Source: a virus. Taken from it: a DNA stretch of 32,389 nucleotides. The notes below the pieces were generated by a model, which saw nothing but the letters and a program-made list of their open reading frames with translations, was not told the DNA's origin and did no database searches. Where the stretch lies: the IMG/VR virus record IMGVR_UViG_3300043436_002150, positions 1 to 32,389 of that record; one strand, given 5' to 3'. The first letter of the stretch is position 1, and each line of letters begins with the position of its first letter. A program made the translations under genes and the position numbers. Shown in pieces: positions 17,146 through 29,057 of this stretch.

Positions 17146-19101
17146 ATGTCTAAATTATGGGTTGACTTTGAGACGCGCAGCCGTTGCGACCTTCGCAGCC
17201 GTGGCGTGTATAATTACGCGCAGGACGCCAGCACCGACGTGCTGTGTATGTCCTACGCATTTGATGACGAAGACGTGCGGACGTGGCTCCCCAGTGAGCC
17301 TTTCCCGCAAGCCGTCAGGGACCATAAGGGGCTGGTATACGCGCACAACGCAGCGTTCGAGCGCCTGATATTTTGGTATGTCCTTCAAGTCGAGTTCAAG
17401 CTGGAGCAGTTCTACTGCACCGCAGCGCAAGCCCGCGCCAACTGTGCGCCGGGCAGCCTTGAAGATGTGGGCCGCTTTGCTGGCGCGACCATGAAGAAAG
17501 ACCATCGCGGCAGTCAGCTAATCCGTGCGCTGTCCATCCCGCAGTCAGACGGCACGTTCCGTGAAGACGCCGCGCTGATGCAGGAGATGGTCGATTATTG
17601 CGAACAGGATGTCCGTGCTACGCGCGCTATCGCGCAGGCGCAGCGTCCGCTGTCGGCTGATGAGTTGGCCGACTACCACACCAACGAGCGCATCAACGAC
17701 CGTGGCGTCCTGCTTGACAGGCCGTTGGCGCAGGCGGCGGTGCGCTACGCTGAAACTGAATTGACGGAGATACAGTCCATCGTCGCAGAGGTGACGCACG
17801 GCGAGATTAAGTCCGTTCGCAGCCCGAAGATGAAGGATTGGGTGTTAGCTAGGGTAGGGCCGCAGGCGCTTGAACTGGCAACCGTGATGAAGGATGGCGT
17901 CGAGAAGCTGTCCATTGACAAGAACGTGCGCGCCAACTTACTTGTGTTGGCAGAGGAGAACCCAGATGAAGTCCCAGCGGAAGTTGCAGAAGTCATCCAG
18001 TGCGCGGACGATCTGTGGGCATCGTCCGTTGCGAAGTTCCAACGTGCAGAGGCGCTTGCTGATGAGGAGGATTTTCGAGTTAGAGGAGCATTTGTATTTG
18101 CAGGAGGCAGTGCTACAGGGCGTGCTTCATCATTTGGGCTTCAAGTCCATAACTTCCCAAGAAAGTGCGCCGCCGACCCTGCATTAGTGCGGCAGTCTAT
18201 GGTGCGCGGCCACAGCATCGTTCCTGAACATGGTCGCCGTGTGACGGACGTGTTGAAAGGTATGCTACGCCCCGCGCTAATGGCCGACAAAGGCAAGCGG
18301 CTGGTCGTCGCTGACTGGGCCGCTATCGAAGCGCGGGTTACGCCGTGGGCGTCCAACAGCATCTTCGGCGCGAACAAGCTGGACATCTTCGCCAAGGGTG
18401 AGGACGTTTACAAGCACAACGCTATGGCGACCTTCCATGTCGGTTATAACGACGTTGACAAAGACCAGCGCCAGATCGGTAAGGTGCAAGAGTTGGCGTG
18501 CGGCTTCGCCGGCGGCGTCGGAGCCTTCGCCAGCATGGGCCGCATCTACGGCTTGATGATGTCGGAGAGCGACGCAAAGCGCATGGTGGACGCATGGCGC
18601 AGGGCTAACAAGTGGGCCGTGCCTTACTGGTCTGGCCTAGAAGAAACCTATATGCGCGCCATGCGGAACAAGGGGCGTGAGTTTACCATCGGGCGCGTCA
18701 CATATTTATTTGACGGGCTGCATCTTTGGTATGCCCTTCCGTCTGGCCGTGTGTTATGTTATCCTTTCGCCCGCTTCGATGAGAAGGGCGACCTGACCTA
18801 TGCCAAGGCTTCGTGGAAGCCAGCCGCAGACGCTAAGGAATGGCCAAGGGCGCGGCTATGGCGCGGTCTGGCGTGTGAGAACATCACGCAGGCTGTCGCT
18901 AACGACTTGCTGCGCCACGCCTTGCGTCAGTTAGATGATGTAGTTTTGCACATCCACGATGAAATCGTCTTGGAAGTGCCAGAAGATGACGCAGAGGCCG
19001 CCGCAGCGCGGCTGGTGCAGATTATGTGTGAGCCGCCACCTTGGGCGTCGGGGCTACCCCTGAATGCAGAAGTGGCAATTATGGAACGATACGGCAAATA
19101 A
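17146..19101 (+). CDS. polA-like: Family A DNA polymerase with 3'-5' exonuclease domain
   Basis: A 651-residue phage-type PolA. The exonuclease domain starts at once with D7-F-E9-T-R (Exo I) and shows Y-C-x-Q-D-V (Exo III region) near residue 157. Polymerase motif A is D390-W-A-A-I-E395-A-R397; motif B is R442-Q-I-G-K446 followed by L450 and F454-A-G-G; motif C is H604-D605-E606. Aligning motif B to E. coli Pol I (R754, K758, F762, Y766) puts Leu450 at the 762 position and Phe454 at 766. The 5' nuclease domain is absent, as usual in phages. It replicates the phage genome with the primase-helicase that follows 10 bases later. Confidence 0.9.
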   Translation: MSKLWVDFETRSRCDLRSRGVYNYAQDASTDVLCMSYAFDDEDVRTWLPSEPFPQAVRDHKGLVYAHNAAFERLIFWYVLQVEFKLEQFYCTAAQARANCAPGSLEDVGRFAGATMKKDHRGSQLIRALSIPQSDGTFREDAALMQEMVDYCEQDVRATRAIAQAQRPLSADELADYHTNERINDRGVLLDRPLAQAAVRYAETELTEIQSIVAEVTHGEIKSVRSPKMKDWVLARVGPQALELATVMKDGVEKLSIDKNVRANLLVLAEENPDEVPAEVAEVIQCADDLWASSVAKFQRAEALADEEDFRVRGAFVFAGGSATGRASSFGLQVHNFPRKCAADPALVRQSMVRGHSIVPEHGRRVTDVLKGMLRPALMADKGKRLVVADWAAIEARVTPWASNSIFGANKLDIFAKGEDVYKHNAMATFHVGYNDVDKDQRQIGKVQELACGFAGGVGAFASMGRIYGLMMSESDAKRMVDAWRRANKWAVPYWSGLEETYMRAMRNKGREFTIGRVTYLFDGLHLWYALPSGRVLCYPFARFDEKGDLTYAKASWKPAADAKEWPRARLWRGLACENITQAVANDLLRHALRQLDDVVLHIHDEIVLEVPEDDAEAAAARLVQIMCEPPPWASGLPLNAEVAIMERYGK

Positions 19102-19111
19102 GGAGCAAGCG

Positions 19112-21460
19112 ATGAGTGAGGATCGCACGAAATTCATAGAATATATAACTGGCTTGGCGACGGACAACGTCGGCGAGACAGCTCTTGTTGTGCGGCAGAA
19201 GCCGCAGCACGACAGCGACGGCAACCTGATGTATCACGCGGACGGCGCGCCAAGGGCTACGTTCCCTGCGTTCCTGCCAGAAAAGACGCGCATGAAAGAA
19301 GGCGAGGCATGGTATGTCAACACAGGCTCGTTCATCGTTGACCGCTTTGTAGACGGCAAGCCTGCCGCCAAGGCCAGCAACGTCGAGTATGTGCTGTTCA
19401 TGATGCTGGACGACGTTGGCACGAAGTCGAAAGAGCCGCCGCTTAAACCGACATGGGTGTTGGAAACCAGCGAAGGTTCGTTCCAGTGGGGCTACGCGTT
19501 CAGCGAACAGCCACGCAAGGGCGACTTCTGCGCTGCCATCAAGGCCATTGCCGATGCTGGCTACACCGATCCGGGCGCGACAAACGCCGTCCGCAACTGT
19601 CGTATCCCCGGCAGCGTCAACCTGAAACAAGGGCGTAATAACTTTCCCGCGCGGCTGGTCGAGTTCCACCCTGACCGCGAGTATACGCTGGACGAAATTT
19701 GCGAGGCGCTGGATGTTACGCCAGAGGAAGGCGACACAGCCGAATATAAAGCCGTGCATTTGCGCGACAGCGGGATGGATAACGTCCTGACATGGCTTGC
19801 CGACAACAACCTAGTCCTTAGCCATCCTAACGCTGATGGCTGGTGCGGCATCGTCTGCCCTAACCATGACCAACACAGCGACGGCATGATCGAAGCGCGC
19901 TACAAGCCGCTGGATCGTTCGTTCTGCTGCTATCATGGGCATTGCCAAGACCTAGACAGCCGCACCTTTCTTGATTGGGTAGCCAATGAAGGTGGCCCGA
20001 AGGTAACGCCGGGCTTGCGCGATGAGTTAATCGCAGAGCGTTTATCGCTCATGTATGACAAGATTTCGCCGACCGAAGCATTCCCCGACGAAGCCGCAGC
20101 GCGTGTGCGTGAGGTCGAAAAGAAAGAAGCCGGACGGCTGGAACAAAGCGAGTGGTTCGAGCGTTTCGCCTATATCCAGTCCGATGACTGCTACTTTGAC
20201 ATGGTGACGCGTCAAGAGATAGCCCGCAACGTCTTCAACGCATTGTTCCGTCACGTTGACTGCCGCTCCATCCACAAGAAGACGCAGCGCATACAATCGT
20301 CCATCTATTTTGATGAGCGCCGGCAGGATCGCGGTGCGCCTGCATTGGCTGCCGTGACGTTCGCCGCTGGCGATGACGTGCTAGTGACGCGTGACGGGTT
20401 GGTTTACGGCAACCGCTGGACAGACGCACGCCCTGACGTGTCGAGCAGCGATAAGATTGCAGACCATGATGTCGAGCCGTGGCTTGAGCATTGCCGCAAT
20501 CTGGTGTCGGATGATGTCGAGTTAGACCATATCCTTGACGCTATGGCGTTCAAGATACAGCACCCTAACGTCAAGATTAACCATGCAATCCTAATTGGCG
20601 GCGATGAAGGCGCTGGTAAGGACAGTATGTTCCAGCCGTTTCTGTGGGCGCTGGGCGGTAAGCATTGGCGCAACAGGTCAGTCATTGAGGCTGGCGGGTT
20701 GGACAGCCAGTGGGGTTACGCGCTTGAGGCTGAAGTTGTCATCCTGAACGAGTTGAAAGAGCCAGAGGCGCGCGAACGTCGCGCTATGGCTAACAAGCTG
20801 AAGCCGCTGATTGCTGCGCCACCTGAAACGCTGTCGGTCAACCGCAAGGGTATGCACCCTTACGAGTTGGTCAACCGCCTGATGGTGGTTGCCTACACGA
20901 ACGATCCGCTACCTATCACGCTGCCGACGCAGGACAGGCGTTGGTTCTGCGTGTGGACGCACTCGCCGCGTATGTCAGCGCCAGCGGCCAAGGCGCTGTG
21001 GGGTTGGTATGAAAATGGCGGCTATGAGAAGTGCGCCGCTTGGCTGCACCAGCGCGACGTGTCGGCGTTCAACCCTGCCGCTGCGCCGCCAGTGACCGAA
21101 TGGAAGCTGAACATGGTCGAGCATGGCATGAGCGTCGCGGAAAGCTATCTAGTGGACCTGATGCGCGCTCGGTCGGGCGTGTTTGCTGATGGTGTCATTG
21201 GTGGACCTTTCCACCGCATATGTGACGCGCTGGCGATTAACGTGCCTGCTGGCGTGAAGATACCGCAGGCGGCGCTGCTACACGCATTAAAAGAGGCTGG
21301 ATGGGTTGACATGGGACGGATCGGCTCAAGTGAACTGCCGACCAAGAAGCACATCTTTGTCTCGCCTGATATTGTTAAGCTGCACACAAAGTCTGAATTG
21401 CGCCGCATGGCAGACGAATTGCCCAAGTCTGGTTTCATGCCGGCGATTGGCAAGAATTGA
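19112..21460 (+). CDS. Primase-helicase (AEP-like primase plus SF3/D5-type helicase)
   Basis: A 782-residue fusion starting at the ATG with AAGGAG (19100-19105) as ribosome site; an in-frame upstream extension to 19064 overlaps the polymerase and is not needed. The N-terminal half has an archaeo-eukaryotic primase look: FMMLDD (D100, D101), PTWVLETSEGSFQWGY (residues 113-128) and NCRIPGSVNLK. A zinc-binding segment follows (WCGIVCPNHDQHSDG and FCCYHGHC, roughly residues 240-280). The C-terminal half has Walker A G497-D-E-G-A-G502-K503-D504 and a Walker B-like VILNE547, typical of phage D5/DUF5906 helicases, where Asp after the Lys is common. It unwinds and primes DNA for the polymerase. Confidence 0.85.
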   Translation: MSEDRTKFIEYITGLATDNVGETALVVRQKPQHDSDGNLMYHADGAPRATFPAFLPEKTRMKEGEAWYVNTGSFIVDRFVDGKPAAKASNVEYVLFMMLDDVGTKSKEPPLKPTWVLETSEGSFQWGYAFSEQPRKGDFCAAIKAIADAGYTDPGATNAVRNCRIPGSVNLKQGRNNFPARLVEFHPDREYTLDEICEALDVTPEEGDTAEYKAVHLRDSGMDNVLTWLADNNLVLSHPNADGWCGIVCPNHDQHSDGMIEARYKPLDRSFCCYHGHCQDLDSRTFLDWVANEGGPKVTPGLRDELIAERLSLMYDKISPTEAFPDEAAARVREVEKKEAGRLEQSEWFERFAYIQSDDCYFDMVTRQEIARNVFNALFRHVDCRSIHKKTQRIQSSIYFDERRQDRGAPALAAVTFAAGDDVLVTRDGLVYGNRWTDARPDVSSSDKIADHDVEPWLEHCRNLVSDDVELDHILDAMAFKIQHPNVKINHAILIGGDEGAGKDSMFQPFLWALGGKHWRNRSVIEAGGLDSQWGYALEAEVVILNELKEPEARERRAMANKLKPLIAAPPETLSVNRKGMHPYELVNRLMVVAYTNDPLPITLPTQDRRWFCVWTHSPRMSAPAAKALWGWYENGGYEKCAAWLHQRDVSAFNPAAAPPVTEWKLNMVEHGMSVAESYLVDLMRARSGVFADGVIGGPFHRICDALAINVPAGVKIPQAALLHALKEAGWVDMGRIGSSELPTKKHIFVSPDIVKLHTKSELRRMADELPKSGFMPAIGKN

Positions 21461-21518: not shown

Positions 21519-21554
21519 AAACCCCCGGCGTCCTCACTCCGCCGGGGGTTTTTT
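21519..21554 (+). terminator. Strong terminator between convergent operons
   Basis: A perfect 12-bp stem, AAACCCCCGGCG (21519-21530) with CGCCGGGGGTTT (21540-21551), with a 9-base loop and T run to 21554. It lies 58 bases after the primase-helicase stop and just before the stop of the convergent - strand gene. The three A at the left base give only a short T run in the opposite direction, so it is strong for + and possibly partial for -. Confidence 0.9.
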
Positions 21555-21919: not shown

Positions 21920-21947
21920 ATTATAGCATAGTTTGAGGGTAGGTCAA
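21920..21947 (-). promoter_or_regulatory. Consensus sigma70 promoter with extended -10
   Basis: Reading the - strand: TTGACC (21947-21942), 16-base spacer, TATAAT (21925-21920), preceded by TGC so that the -10 is of the extended TGnTATAAT type. It is the best promoter match in the window. The spacer is TACCCTCAAACTATGC, an element repeated upstream of the - strand gene at 25747. It drives the 99-aa gene. Confidence 0.8.
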
Positions 21948-21948
21948 G

Positions 21949-22011
21949 AACTTTCTTTCCTTTGTTTTCAATGACTTAGAAGAAAGTTATTTTTATTATC
22001 TTTTGTTTTCA
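21949..22011 (-). repeat. Upstream repeats of the 21.9 kb promoter
   Basis: Two 10-base direct copies TTTGTTTTCA (21961-21970 and 22002-22011), 41 bases apart (about four helical turns), and an inverted repeat AACTTTCTT (21949-21957) with AAGAAAGTT (21980-21988). The stretch is A/T-rich and lies directly upstream of the -35 box, so it could be an UP-like element or activator/repressor sites. Confidence 0.45.
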
Positions 22012-22016
22012 GTTAG

Positions 22017-22217
22017 TTACCGCAGTCGGGTAACTGTCAGCTTGTCACCCTTGGAGCGTGTCATGTAGTGGCGCTCCGTCCGCTCGTTTTGATTGTGCGC
22101 TGAACGGCGCAGAATGTCTTTGTCGCGTTCGGTCGGTGTGTCGAACACACGCACCTCACCAACAGCCATTGCGTTTATGCCGTGCTTAGATTTGCGTGTG
22201 TCAGAACCGAATGTCAT
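22017..22217 (-). CDS. Small basic protein, 66 aa, paralogue of its upstream neighbour
   Basis: The ATG at 22217 shares one base with the stop of the preceding gene (TAATG). Key parts: NAMAVGEVRVFDTPTERDKD, ILRRSAHNQNERTERHYMTR, then GDKLTVTRLR at the end. The same skeleton (hydrophobic-x-VGEV, an R/N-rich helix, and TxTRLR as the last residues) is seen in the gene just upstream, so the two probably arose by tandem duplication. The helix plus beta end and strong positive charge suggest DNA or RNA binding, but there is no family match. Confidence 0.6.
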   Translation of the reverse strand: MTFGSDTRKSKHGINAMAVGEVRVFDTPTERDKDILRRSAHNQNERTERHYMTRSKGDKLTVTRLR

Positions 22218-22402
22218 TATCTTAACCTCGTTATGAATGTGACGCCCTCAACAGTGCGGCACTTGAATGCCTTGCCGTTCCTGATGCCATATTGCGAGGC
22301 GTTGCGGCTGGTGCGCTTGGCATCGCCGCGCTTGGCGGCTGGCATGGTGCCAACCTCACCAACTTCTAGCGTTCCCATTGGGTAAATCATCGGGCGGCTC
22401 AT
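22217..22402 (-). CDS. Small basic protein, 61 aa, paralogue of its downstream neighbour
   Basis: The ATG at 22402 overlaps the stop of the 177-aa gene as ATGA; a TTG at 22408 would add two residues and is less likely. Main segments: GTLEVGEVGTMPAAKRGDAK, RTSRNASQYGIRNGKAFKCR, ending TVEGVTFITRLR. Its VGEV motif, central RNA/SxN helix and C-terminal TRLR line up with the next gene. The SRNASQYGIRNGKAFKCR part resembles a short recognition helix. No enzyme motif. Confidence 0.6.
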   Translation of the reverse strand: MSRPMIYPMGTLEVGEVGTMPAAKRGDAKRTSRNASQYGIRNGKAFKCRTVEGVTFITRLR

Positions 22403-22932
22403 TCGCAATTCCAGACTTGTGTTGAGGTGGCGATGTCAGTCGGCCAGCCTGTGTTTTCAGTAAAGCTGCGTTCTTCGAACAACACCATGTTGGTTGGTCG
22501 GATCAGCAGTCGGTCGCCTTCGGTTCGCATAAACATAAATTCCTTTGATTGTTCTGGTGCTGCGCTGAACCCGTCACTGTGCGGGCAAGCGGTAAACAGA
22601 CACGTCGCGCGGTTTTCCGTCCCGTCATAGCGCGCTGTCAGGTCTGCTAGATAGTCGTATTTGATAACGTCGAATTGCGTCCCGTAGCAGTCCCAGACTT
22701 GCGATTGTTGCAGCGTCCATGCAGGGTTGGGGCTGTCGCTAAACGCTAACGCATGGGGCGGCACGTTGCGGTATACCGCGCCGCATTCGAGCATGACGTG
22801 ACAGCCCCAAGCGCGGTTCGGTGTCGAGCGTAACGCAAACCACACGGCTGGCTCGTATCGCGGCTTGCCCTTGCGTATAAATGCGCTGTCAACATAGATA
22901 TATAAATGATGTGGTAGGTTGCGGCTGCTCAT
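22399..22932 (-). CDS. Conserved phage protein, 177 aa, unknown function
   Basis: A compact protein, rich in aromatic residues: LYIYVDSAFIRKGKPRYEPA, then VWFALRSTPNRAWGCHVMLE, YRNVPPHALAFSDSP, and the C-terminal half RATCLFTACPHSDGFSAAPE and MVLFEERSFTENTGWPTD. I recall the same segments (CHVMLECGA, LFTxxxHxDGFS, LFxERSFT..WP) in other phages, always without function. Four or five cysteines are spread out rather than in zinc pairs. It is coupled to both neighbours by 4-base overlaps, so it belongs to the same early message. Confidence 0.65.
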   Translation of the reverse strand: MSSRNLPHHLYIYVDSAFIRKGKPRYEPAVWFALRSTPNRAWGCHVMLECGAVYRNVPPHALAFSDSPNPAWTLQQSQVWDCYGTQFDVIKYDYLADLTARYDGTENRATCLFTACPHSDGFSAAPEQSKEFMFMRTEGDRLLIRPTNMVLFEERSFTENTGWPTDIATSTQVWNCE

Positions 22933-24639: not shown

Positions 24640-25506
24640 TTAGCCGACAACAAAGCCGGATTGATCGCGGCGTGCCTTGCCCTTAGCGTATAGCGCAACG
24701 ACGGCGCCCTTAGGATCCAAATGCCTTACGTCGCTATCGTCACCGTCAACGACGGGCAGGCCTAAGAACGTATCGCCATTGGCAAGCATAGCGTTGACGA
24801 TCGCGCGATCACGAAACACAACCGCTATGCGATCGCCATTAGCGACGGCTTTAGCAACAAACGGTTGATAAGCTTCGACGCCGCTATAGCTAAACGTAAG
24901 ATCATAATTTGCGGGAAGGTTTTTGTTGCGGTTCGCGATCTTAGTATAATCGTAAAATTGGATATCTGGCAAAGCTTGCATAATGTTAGCATATGCATGG
25001 CCGATAGGCTCGTTTTCCCACCGAACGTCGCTAGTACCGTTCAAGCGCACAATAAGCTTATAACCTTTGCGCTTGGCCTTAGCGCGCTCGCGAATAAGCT
25101 CGTTCTGCAATTGCAGCATGAATTGATCGCGATATTGGTTAAAATATAGCGTCTTACGCAAACGCGATAGCATAACGCTATTCATGGCGCCGCGCCCGGC
25201 GGTAAATAGGCAAGCTTTCTCACAACCGGCGGTTTTCGCCATAGGGCACAATTGCGTGCCGCCCTGCTCGGCTGGCATTAGATATAGGATAGCGGTTTTA
25301 ATGCCGTACTGCTCGCCCTTAATCGTTTTCGCGTTTGTATCAATGCCGAGAAGCTTTTCTGGCAGGCGGGCGAATAGCGATCGGTTGTGATCGTTGCCTA
25401 AAATCTGCAATTGGATATCAAGCGATAGCGCGCTGATATCATATGCAAGCGCCGTTTCGGGGAAAGCTTGATTATATGCGAACGGTTGATTGATGAAATG
25501 TAACAT
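24640..25506 (-). CDS. GP88-like phage protein (mycobacteriophage gp88 family type)
   Basis: A 288-residue protein with AGGAG 9 bases before the ATG at 25506. The central block TAILYLMPAEQGGTQLCPMA, KTAGCEKACLFTAGRGAMNS and the following RLRKTLYFNQYRDQFMLQL carry three cysteines (C-x6-C-x3-C) that are the hallmark of phage 'gene product 88' proteins; further on GYKLIVRLNGTSDVRWENEP and LTFSYSGVEAYQPF are also typical. The fold and activity are unknown to me; the spaced Cys suggest a metal or Fe-S site and the later part resembles a TIM-barrel-like enzyme. Family call from memory. Confidence 0.65.
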   Translation of the reverse strand: MLHFINQPFAYNQAFPETALAYDISALSLDIQLQILGNDHNRSLFARLPEKLLGIDTNAKTIKGEQYGIKTAILYLMPAEQGGTQLCPMAKTAGCEKACLFTAGRGAMNSVMLSRLRKTLYFNQYRDQFMLQLQNELIRERAKAKRKGYKLIVRLNGTSDVRWENEPIGHAYANIMQALPDIQFYDYTKIANRNKNLPANYDLTFSYSGVEAYQPFVAKAVANGDRIAVVFRDRAIVNAMLANGDTFLGLPVVDGDDSDVRHLDPKGAVVALYAKGKARRDQSGFVVG

Positions 25507-25531: not shown

Positions 25532-25747
25532 TTAAAGGTGAATTAAGCCGGTGTCGGGCATTAGCGTCGCATAGTGCACCGGGCGCTCGTACAAGCCGGT
25601 AACGCCGTCGCGATAAATCGATATCCAGCGCCCGGCGATCGCAAAGCCGATAGTCGCACCATATGGCACGCTAGCCGTGATAGGCCAAATATCGATCAAG
25701 CTTTCACTATCCAACGCGGCGTTTAACGTTTCAAAGTAGTTTTGCAT
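25532..25747 (-). CDS. First gene of the - strand early block, 71 aa, unknown
   Basis: Start placed at ATG 25747, 8 bases after GAGG; an open extension to 25810 has no ribosome site and runs through the control element. The protein is mostly beta-prone: MQNYFETLNAALDSESLIDI, WPITASVPYGATIGFAIAGR, WISIYRDGVTGLYERPVHYA, TLMPDTGLIHL. No motif recognised. It is the first gene read from the 25.8 kb control region and should be made early if that region holds the early promoter. Confidence 0.6.
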   Translation of the reverse strand: MQNYFETLNAALDSESLIDIWPITASVPYGATIGFAIAGRWISIYRDGVTGLYERPVHYATLMPDTGLIHL

Positions 25748-25783
25748 CTGTTTTGCCTCATATTGTGTTGCAAGACTTCCGTC

Positions 25784-25799
25784 GCATAATTTGAGGGTA
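25784..25799 (-). promoter_or_regulatory. GAGGGTA element upstream of the early block
   Basis: On the - strand this reads TACCCTCAAATTATGC and matches 15 of 16 bases of the spacer of the 21.9 kb promoter (21926-21941). A TTGCAA/TTGTTT -35-like stretch lies just upstream, but no good -10 is present at the same spacing, so it is more probably a protein-binding site than part of a standard promoter. It lies 37 bases before the ATG of the first early gene. Confidence 0.6.
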
Positions 25800-25826
25800 C
25801 TTGCAAACAAAAAAATGCATCGGGCG

Positions 25827-25875
25827 AAAAATAGTCATTTGTTAGGCTATGAAACAAAGCCAAATGACTATTTTT
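25827..25875. repeat. Perfect 15-bp inverted repeat
   Basis: AAAAATAGTCATTTG (25827-25841) and CAAATGACTATTTTT (25861-25875) are exact reverse complements around a 19-base loop that carries one AGCCTAA copy. T runs end both strands, so it could act as an A/T-rich bidirectional terminator or as an origin/binding structure. Confidence 0.8.
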
Positions 25876-26119
25876 AAACGGCTGATTTGCGCGGCTTTGA
25901 GGGGGAGTTAGGCGGTTTAGGCTATTGGTTTTATAGTCACTTACAAATGTAAAAATAAGAGGGTATATATAACCTATACGGTTAGCGTCACTTCACGGTG
26001 ACTTGAAAACCGATAGCCTAAATAGCCTAAATGACCTAACTTACCCTCTAACTTTACGCTAACGTAAAGCAGGCATGGCACGCGGTATCGATCGCCGATC
26101 GCATAGCCTAAACCGCCTA
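25842..26119. repeat. AGCCTAA repeat array with symmetric arrangement (candidate origin)
   Basis: AGCCTAA occurs in - orientation at 25842-25848 and 25917-25923, and in + orientation at 26015-26021, 26024-26030 and 26105-26111, with variants GCCTA at 25909-25915 (-), GACCTAA at 26033-26039 and CGCCTAT at 26114-26120. The three at 26015-26041 are tandem 9-mers (AGCCTAAAT twice, then GACCTAACT). The 17-mer ATAGCCTAAACCGCCTA occurs exactly at 26103-26119 and inverted at 25909-25925. Iteron-like arrays in non-coding A/T-rich DNA are typical of replication origins or multi-site operators. Confidence 0.75.
26052..26069. repeat. Palindrome CTTTACG-CTAA-CGTAAAG
   Basis: Perfect 7-base arms (26052-26058 and 26063-26069) around CTAA, directly following a TACCCTC box at 26042-26048. 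Size and form suit a dimeric repressor operator. No T run, so not a terminator. Confidence 0.6.
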
Positions 26120-26320
26120 TGTTTATTGTGCAGTGCAGCATAGCCAGCCAGCCAATGTGTTTTTCTTAATGCGACCGACTCGCAAAAGAAAAAGGCCAAT
26201 CCAGAATCTGCGCTATAGAACAAAGCCAGAACGCGTCGAGCAGGGGGGTGGGGGTGGCAGGGCCGAGCGCCGCGTGACTGTCACGGTCACATATCGCAAA
26301 CAATTTTTATTTTTTTAAAA

Positions 26321-26329: not shown

Positions 26330-26385
26330 GCACCCCGCACCAAAGCCTGTTGCATACAGACCGCAACTAGATTATTGTGCGCCCA

Positions 26386-26886
26386 ATGACTTTCTACTCA
26401 CTGCCATTCACACCAGAGCGGACGCAAGCCACCGAGGCGCGGCTGGAGGCAATCTATGAAGCTGCCCGCTACGGCCTAAAGGGTGACAGTCTGGCGATGG
26501 CCGCTGGCCTTACCCCGCGGCAGTTCCGCGTGCTGGCCGACGCTGACCCGCTGGTGGAGATGGCTGAGATCAAAGGTCGCAGCGACGGCGAATACACAGC
26601 GGCTAAGACCATGTACGAAGCGGCGCGCGATGGCGACAGCAAGGCTGCGCTGGAGATACTCAAGCATCAGCACGGCTGGGTAGCCAAGCAGCAGATCGAC
26701 GTAAACATCGACCAACAGATAAGCATTACAGGCGCGCTGGAAAAAGCACAGTCGCGCGTCATCGAGGGGCTGTACACAGACGTGACGCCCCGACTAGAGG
26801 ATAACACACATGCAGCAGCCGATATATTCAGCGCAAGACGAGATGGAGTTGATGGCGCGGCTGTGGTCGCCCAGCCTGAAGGATGA
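26386..26886 (+). CDS. Terminase small subunit
   Basis: A 166-residue protein before the large terminase. Residues about 12-75 contain a helix-turn-helix of the small-terminase kind (RLEAIYEAARYGLKGDSLAM, AAGLTPRQFRVLADADPLVE), followed by the central helices (KTMYEAARDGDSKAALEILK, HQHGWVAKQQIDV) typical of oligomerisation domains. It recognises the packaging site and regulates the large subunit. No Shine-Dalgarno precedes ATG 26386 or the in-frame GTG at 26377, so the start is uncertain by three codons. The 3' end overlaps the large subunit gene by 77 bases. Confidence 0.8.
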   Translation: MTFYSLPFTPERTQATEARLEAIYEAARYGLKGDSLAMAAGLTPRQFRVLADADPLVEMAEIKGRSDGEYTAAKTMYEAARDGDSKAALEILKHQHGWVAKQQIDVNIDQQISITGALEKAQSRVIEGLYTDVTPRLEDNTHAAADIFSARRDGVDGAAVVAQPEG

Positions 26887-28766: not shown

Positions 28767-29057
28767 ATGCCATCAGGTAAAAAAGATATTTACGGCACTA
28801 AAAGCAAACGCCTTGCCGACCCAAAAGATATACGGGCTGAAATGGGCGCTGAAAGAAACGCTGCTGCTGCCGCCAAGTATGTAAAGCCTAAGCCTGATAT
28901 GCGTGACGGCACAACAAACCCCAGCGGCGGACGCCCAGCGGTCAAAATGCCCGCTAAAGCCGCGCCTGCTAAAATGCTGAAACCTGTACAGAAACCTGTA
29001 CAGGTCACACGCACAACGACCGCCTACCGGCCAACGCCAATGGGCAAAAAGAAATAA
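28767..29057 (+). CDS. Basic Ala/Lys/Pro-rich protein, 96 aa
   Basis: Starts directly after the preceding stop. MPSGKKDIYGTKSKRLADPK, then a helix DIRAEMGAERNAAAAAKYVK, and a low-complexity tail with VKMPAKAAPAKM, two KPVQ repeats (LKPVQKPVQVTR) and a final MGKKK. Mostly disordered and positively charged. No family recognised. Same style and strand as its neighbours, so probably part of one set of virion- or DNA-associated small proteins. Confidence 0.6.
   Translation: MPSGKKDIYGTKSKRLADPKDIRAEMGAERNAAAAAKYVKPKPDMRDGTTNPSGGRPAVKMPAKAAPAKMLKPVQKPVQVTRTTTAYRPTPMGKKK

Follow-up and report, generated by a model that had tools for sequence, protein, structure and literature searches.

A candidate iteron-type replication origin in an environmental phage group, with repeats that covary with a primase-helicase loop

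The SaPI initiators Rep and Cch2 read iterons with their C-terminal domain (PMC7581432), and the origin organization of the PICIs was described as known from no other bacterial replicon (PMC6092414). In the PLE satellites, iterons covary with the DNA-binding domain of their initiator, and origin swaps have proved the cognate pairing; a change of origin also counters an origin-directed nuclease (PMC8263062). It has long been asked how an essential origin and its initiator can shift specificity jointly while the replicon survives, a question addressed so far through few pairs (lambdoid O/ori, geminivirus Rep/iterons, and the two PLE types). Here we analyzed a 32,389-nt stretch of viral DNA (IMG/VR record IMGVR_UViG_3300043436_002150; "the window" below), in which a preliminary description had noted a symmetric array of AGCCTAA repeats. 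We consider it probable (roughly 0.84), from sequence comparison, that this array is the replication origin of the phage and that a primase-helicase is its iteron-reading initiator.

Layout and setting of the repeat array

The virus record (32.4 kb) is classed as linear and the contig is probably incomplete, because several relatives have genomes of 37 to 39 kb. The array is noncoding: it occupies the interval separating the small early genes, which run leftward from 25810 to 21558, from the terminase genes, which run rightward (Table 1). Five copies of AGCCTAA lie within 278 nt, at 25842 (-), 25917 (-), 26015 (+), 26024 (+), and 26105 (+), in a word count over the whole window. With a sixth copy at 28885, the contig total is only mildly unusual (6 versus 2.7 expected), and the unusual part is the clustering. 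In 20,000 Markov shuffles of the same 278 nt, AGCCTAA occurred 0.106 times on average and three times at most. The array is the densest 7-mer repeat of the contig, as no other 278-nt window holds a 7-mer five times. The earlier view of the array as real and nonrandom is therefore borne out, and all the parts that had been listed (three tandem 9-mers, a 17-mer present once per orientation, and three variants) were found again. A count of AGCCTAA elsewhere in the genome, suggested at the time as a check, gave the single copy at 28885. The cumulative GC skew, suggested likewise, has no extremum near 25.9 kb.

The array consists of two opposed sets of 9-mers (ATAGCCTAA), in minus orientation on the left and plus orientation on the right, with an AT-rich core between them (72% AT, versus 45% for the contig). 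Several direct repeats far above chance and an adjacent AT-rich region, two features of an iteron-type theta origin, are both present. The two arms formed by the exact 17-mer ATAGCCTAAACCGCCTA, one at 25909-25925 (-) and the other at 26103-26119 (+), are separated by 177 nt. An AT-rich stretch is also found at this position in relatives, and the pattern AACC-N(4-6)-GGTT is present in the array region of 50 of 71 genomes. Palindromes resembling CTTTACGCTAACGTAAAG (TTACGTTAACGTAA or TTGACGTTAACGTCAA) occur in several relatives; several also carry a DnaA box on the outer left side in place of the AAAAATAGTCATTTG/CAAATGACTATTTTT inverted repeat. BLASTN searches of the array region against named phages returned only spurious short matches, and neither Rfam families nor tRNAs were found in the window.

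Table 1. Features of the array and of the genes discussed in the text (positions in the window)
Feature	Position	Strand	Basis or remark
Primase-helicase, 798 aa, proposed initiator	19064..21460	+	domain searches and covariation
Predicted winged-helix domain of the primase-helicase, codons 691-771	21134..21376	+	low-confidence models
Wing loop, codons 753-761 (IGSSELPTK)	21320..21346	+	residues track the iteron word
First leftward early gene, 92 aa, no family	25532..25810	-	
Perfect 15-nt inverted repeat AAAAATAGTCATTTG / CAAATGACTATTTTT around the outer left iteron	25827..25875	.	
Outer left iteron ATAGCCTAA	25842..25850	-	word count and comparison with relatives
Inner left tandem 9-mer iteron pair (ACCGCCTAA, ATAGCCTAA)	25908..25925	-	repeat search
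Variant 9-mer ACCGCCTAA	25908..25916	-	
AT-rich core between the iteron sets, candidate unwinding region	25926..25985	.	AT content only
Interrupted palindrome AACCTATACGGTT inside the core	25971..25983	.	
Inner right set of 9-mer iterons, three in tandem (ATAGCCTAA, ATAGCCTAA, ATGACCTAA)	26013..26039	+	
Variant 9-mer ATGACCTAA	26031..26039	+	
Palindrome CTTTACGCTAACGTAAAG between the inner and outer right sets	26052..26069	.	
Outer right iteron pair (ATAGCCTAA, ACCGCCTAT)	26103..26120	+	
Variant 9-mer ACCGCCTAT	26112..26120	+	
Small terminase subunit, first rightward late gene	26377..26886	+	synteny and annotation in OR003940

Some neighboring elements deserve mention in their own right. The motif GCATARTTTGAGGG occurs at 21926-21939 and 25784-25797 (two exact copies versus 0.3 expected at up to 2 mismatches) and is possibly an early-promoter element. 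Its copy at 21.9 kb falls inside the spacer of a leftward site with good resemblance to a promoter (TTGACC-16-TATAAT, 21947 to 21920); at 25784-25797, the leftward promoter-like motif GCATAATTTGAGGG adjoins the left end of the array. A strong GC-rich inverted repeat followed by T's (21519-21551), between the convergent primase-helicase and 21558 genes, is likely a terminator. AT content peaks in the contig at about 21953-22020, downstream of the primase gene; this stretch was considered as an alternative origin and rejected, as it has no iterons and only a promoter-like site and short repeats. Two adjacent genes on the minus strand (22017-22217 and 22217-22408) encode small, paralog-like proteins (63 to 66 aa) with basic C-terminal halves ending in TRLR; no Pfam family was found for either, and the second is highly conserved and present in nearly all relatives. 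The minus-strand gene at 24640-25506 belongs to the phage-widespread Gene product 88 family (PF17338, phrog_1617), and only some close relatives have it. The 92-aa early gene is missing in some relatives in which the array is still there.

Conserved place and changing word in relatives

More than 100 relatives were found in two successive searches, the first with the protein encoded at 24640-25506 and the second with the small terminase, and array comparisons covered about 70 phages. The small terminase gene, which lies 260 to 540 nt downstream of the array, served as the anchor for locating the array in relatives. Exact counts of AGCCTAA were first read as a lack of conservation, a view that was dropped when alignment showed the word to change in concert. 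In the first alignment, the array was at the same place, and the base preceding TAGGC was chiefly T in the window, C in three relatives (L004, L008, and L011), G in one (L012), and mixed T/C in another (L005). Copies within one genome tend to shift jointly, nearly all at once (to TTAGGC, CTAGGC, or GTAGGC), and this concerted change points to one trans-acting reader.

In the larger set, many genomes lacked AGCCTAA; at that place, their arrays repeat a different word (ATAGCCTAG, ATAGCCTAC, ATGACCCAG, ATGACGTCC, or ATGACAACT; also ATGACAACTTGAC and ATGGCAACTTGAC). The small terminases of such different-word genomes are 95 to 99% identical to each other and up to 99% identical to that of the window. 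Conservation in relatives, on which the preliminary description had let its proposal depend, therefore has two sides: the AGCCTAA word is lost in many genomes, whereas place and layout are kept. The common plan runs from outer left repeats through an inner left set facing left, some 60 nt of AT-rich sequence, and inner right tandem 9-mers facing right to an outer right pair. The 9-mer itself joins a constant ATRRC to four letters that vary (CTAA, CTAG, CTAC, CCAG, or GTCC). We divided the arrays into classes with GCCTA words (A), GACCCAG (B), and GACGTC or GACAACTT (N). In class A, 26 of 27 cases have left inner repeats in minus and right inner repeats in plus orientation, pointing away from each other (right side plus in 88 of 90), and class B is less regular. 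All three classes occur among contigs of a single metagenome, 3300042868 (A, L080 and L118; B, L071 and L132; N, L309).

Perfect DnaA boxes (TTATCCACA) also cluster at this place. Sixteen were found in 44.1 kb upstream of the terminase genes, compared with 2 in 559 kb elsewhere for the same loci, an enrichment of about 100-fold beside the array. In a later set, 28 of 71 genomes had the box, and the window has no perfect copy. Host DnaA boxes are common, though not universal, at iteron-type origins. The boxes support the reading of the array as an origin, yet they cannot be required in general.

Two more distant, named phages also have arrays immediately before the terminase genes, with the word GTTTACA in MW202483 (L065, 4900-5020) and TGACCCACTGGGT in OR003940 (L066, 3590-4130). 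The primase C terminus of OR003940 looks unrelated, and the two arrays suggest that the position of the origin outlives the type of initiator. Other repeats accompany the array in places. L087 (about 284 to 326 nt upstream of the small terminase gene) and L089 have four tandem 14-nt units containing ACGCGATCACCGT beside the usual layout. In L120 and L105, GTCATGAC-type repeats (CGCAGTCATGACC) lie between the inner and outer right iterons, about 260 to 370 nt upstream of the small terminase gene; these form a further repeat family, present in some relatives. A contig binned to a Rhodoferax metagenome-assembled genome (L314, 9337-9549) encodes a 56% identical primase-helicase and has GGCCTACATGG-type repeats plus four 24-nt units downstream, a hint that the hosts are betaproteobacterial.

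Covariation of the word with the predicted wing of a primase-helicase

The protein that changes together with the repeats is encoded 4.4 kb from the array, and no iterons lie directly 3' of its gene. It has a RepB_primase-like N-terminal part, a DUF5906/VapE-type helicase, and, in low-confidence models, a winged-helix-like C-terminal domain, and it distantly matches a solved protein named primase (6k9c). For 64 nonredundant genomes, we compiled a repeat profile of 6-mers occurring at least three times, with no word specified. A 15-aa window was then moved along the primase-helicase and its identity between genomes compared with this profile, with helicase-part identity as the control variable. 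The partial correlation was highest at aa 747 to 766 (0.67) and 742 to 756 (0.64); it fell to 0.47 at aa 757 to 771, 0.33 at aa 762 to 776, and 0.28 at aa 767 to 781 and lay between -0.24 and 0.23 further from the peak (scan of aa 467 to 798). None of 1,000 permutations reached the value for aa 751 to 775 (maximum, 0.14). Without the helicase-part control, the peak was 0.656.

Among control proteins, the best windows gave 0.17 (polA), 0.21 (SSB), 0.10 (small terminase), and 0.13 (large terminase). Five early proteins gave r values of at most 0.15 (g22217, g23188, g23520, and g23777) or 0.28 (g22929, in 28 genomes only). The primase-helicase is the sole tested protein that tracks the word, and it does so at aa 742 to 766 only. 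Since the protein is otherwise 84 to 94% identical between classes, the signal does not reflect whole-protein relatedness, and linkage is no explanation because genes between and around the two loci do not covary comparably. As loop and repeat change together, this short loop is the putative reader of the repeats. Where the preliminary description saw no obvious iteron-binding initiator, the covariation makes the primase-helicase a strong candidate. Its suggestion that small early proteins bind the array fared less well, their covariation being close to background. Those tested, out of a candidate list that included the two 63- to 66-aa paralogs, were ruled out as binders on this ground, and the terminase was rejected as the reader in the same comparison.

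Pfam and PDB sequence searches with the C-terminal domain gave no credible match. A model of aa 671 to 798 (pLDDT 63) has the order helix, helix, strand, helix, helix, strand, loop, strand, and in this low-confidence model the covarying residues sit in the loop between the last two strands, i.e., the wing. The full-length model is poor (pLDDT 36) and has the same hairpin (strands 748-754 and 761-766). Foldseek and VIA-align returned weak matches, mostly to winged-helix proteins (Foldseek E values above 0.1). About 25 residues of the wing region change, and the rest of the domain is nearly invariant. Because the helix preceding the wing is among the nearly invariant parts and the covarying residues are in the wing, it is natural, though unproved, to suppose that the fixed helix reads the constant half of the 9-mer, ATRRC, and the variable wing the variable half.

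Wing residues and words pair in a pattern. GCCTA words accompany GS when the next residue is S, T, V, or K; GACCCAG accompanies HS or AS with V or I next; and NSK is paired with GACGTC or GACAACTT. Wing class equals repeat class in all 62 assignable genomes (34 A, 8 B, and 20 N) of 72, a rule formed on most of the same genomes, with 5 of the 62 fetched after it was noted. This out-of-sample test is small (five informative genomes) because four other seeds gave mostly the same genomes. Outside the 62 are three genomes without a clear word and seven with wings beyond the rule (six with ACVDH, and L065). The ACVDH genomes (L206, L203, L205, L133, L250, and L257) have mixed words, GCCTAA together with CCCAG/GCCCAA, and their wing, which the rule does not explain, may be a transitional form or one of relaxed specificity. 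Within class A, the letter after GCCTA is A in 23 of 23 cases with Ser756, mostly G with Thr756 (104 of 168; A in 56), mostly C with Lys756 (14 of 21), and A or G with Val756, so that a letter rule holds only in part. A tree of aa 331 to 740 requires the repeat class to have changed 14 times or more. Wherever branches are well supported, the independent pairs are all concordant (4, 3, and 4 for the three classes); the pairs overlap and are too few for a sign test to reach significance. The genomes are related to each other, and such well-supported independent contrasts are few.

Proposed origin function, alternatives, and known systems

We infer the following mechanism, including the direction of replication and the half-site read by each element. 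The primase-helicase would use its C-terminal winged-helix domain to bind the iterons. Within each 9-mer, ATRRC would probably be read by the conserved recognition helix, and the variable half (CTAA here) by the wing loop. Oligomers on the two iteron sets would melt the AT-rich core and then load as outward-moving helicases, and the primase part would start synthesis for the family-A DNA polymerase of the phage.

The preliminary description had left open whether the array is an origin or a multisite operator. Position, AT-rich core, layout, the DnaA boxes of relatives, and covariation favor the former, and an operator role is possible in addition. As the sole function, with the iterons bound by the primase-helicase or another protein to control divergent promoters and replication starting elsewhere, operator activity seems unlikely to us. 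It would suit an array placed exactly between the divergent early-left and late-right transcription units, with promoter-like GCATAATTTGAGGG abutting its left end. However, the covarying protein is a primase-helicase and no repressor, and the tested small early proteins lack comparable covariation; the DnaA-box enrichment and the conserved AT-rich core between opposed iteron sets are likewise origin traits. Autoregulation on top of origin function is quite possible.

The region upstream of the small terminase gene is a frequent place of pac or cos sites, and the distance of 260 to 540 nt would fit a partition, packaging (pac), or recombination site recognized by a terminase or partition protein. 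We regard this as very improbable, since small terminases that are 95 to 99% identical serve genomes with different words, the word is not followed by small-terminase identity (r = 0.10 in the best window), and no ParA/ParB-like gene was found among the proteins searched. Equally far-fetched is a joint exchange of primase C terminus and array by recombination without physical contact, for although these phages are mosaic and close relatives differ at both loci, 4.4 kb lies between the two, with intervening genes that show no comparable covariation, and only about 25 residues of the wing region change in an otherwise nearly invariant domain, unlike a block replacement.

If the array is the origin and the primase-helicase its initiator, an environmental phage group without an obvious initiator or origin gains candidates for both. 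The group may even hold at least five distinct origin-initiator specificities among close relatives in the same samples, switched by few wing residues next to a fixed helix, with origin parasites (satellites, titrating plasmids, or origin-directed nucleases) as a plausible driver; we put this forward tentatively and rather doubt it at present. If true, it would amount to a readable wing-to-iteron code. There are dozens of natural pairs here, differing in the word and within some 10 contiguous residues of a protein that is otherwise nearly constant, in which such a code and its intermediate steps are testable by swaps.

The best reading by analogy is that this origin works like those of phage P4 and the PICI/SaPI satellites, with the primase-helicase as initiator. 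P4 (NC_001609) also has short iterons (8-mers spaced 9 to 11 nt, in both orientations) in noncoding DNA flanked by an early operon running leftward and late genes running rightward; some 2 kb away lies the gene of a primase-helicase initiator of similar length (alpha, 777 aa versus 798 aa). In contrast to the single cluster found here, P4 requires a second site (crr) with the same iterons, and its iteron word is GGTGAACAG. A comparison with P4 alpha revealed no sequence kinship (hhalign probability of 0.1 to 0.2%, with a shallow alignment against a single P4 sequence), and the P4 origin-binding domain is absent among the VIA-align matches listed, which excludes nothing. Lambdoid O/ori-lambda likewise combines iterons with an AT-rich tract bound by a phage initiator (PMC7466680), as we propose here; there, the O gene itself contains the iterons, and the O protein is no helicase, whereas this array is intergenic. 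With the PLEs of Vibrio cholerae the locus shares covariation between iterons and the initiator's DNA-binding domain, seen here from sequence alone. The PLEs, however, have a RepA_N initiator, iterons of about 30 bp, and two types, compared with several words and changes confined to the wing loop. That pressure from an origin-directed nuclease of the PLE kind acts here is speculation. The PICI/SaPI initiator is a helicase that recognizes iterons C-terminally (PMC7581432), much as a helicase with a modeled winged-helix C terminus would here. Their origin lies directly 3' of rep, whereas this one is 4.4 kb off, past the early genes. The PICIs and SaPIs are satellites, and the layout of two iteron sets around an AT-rich stretch, called peculiar to PICIs, now appears in a phage with its own terminase and portal genes.
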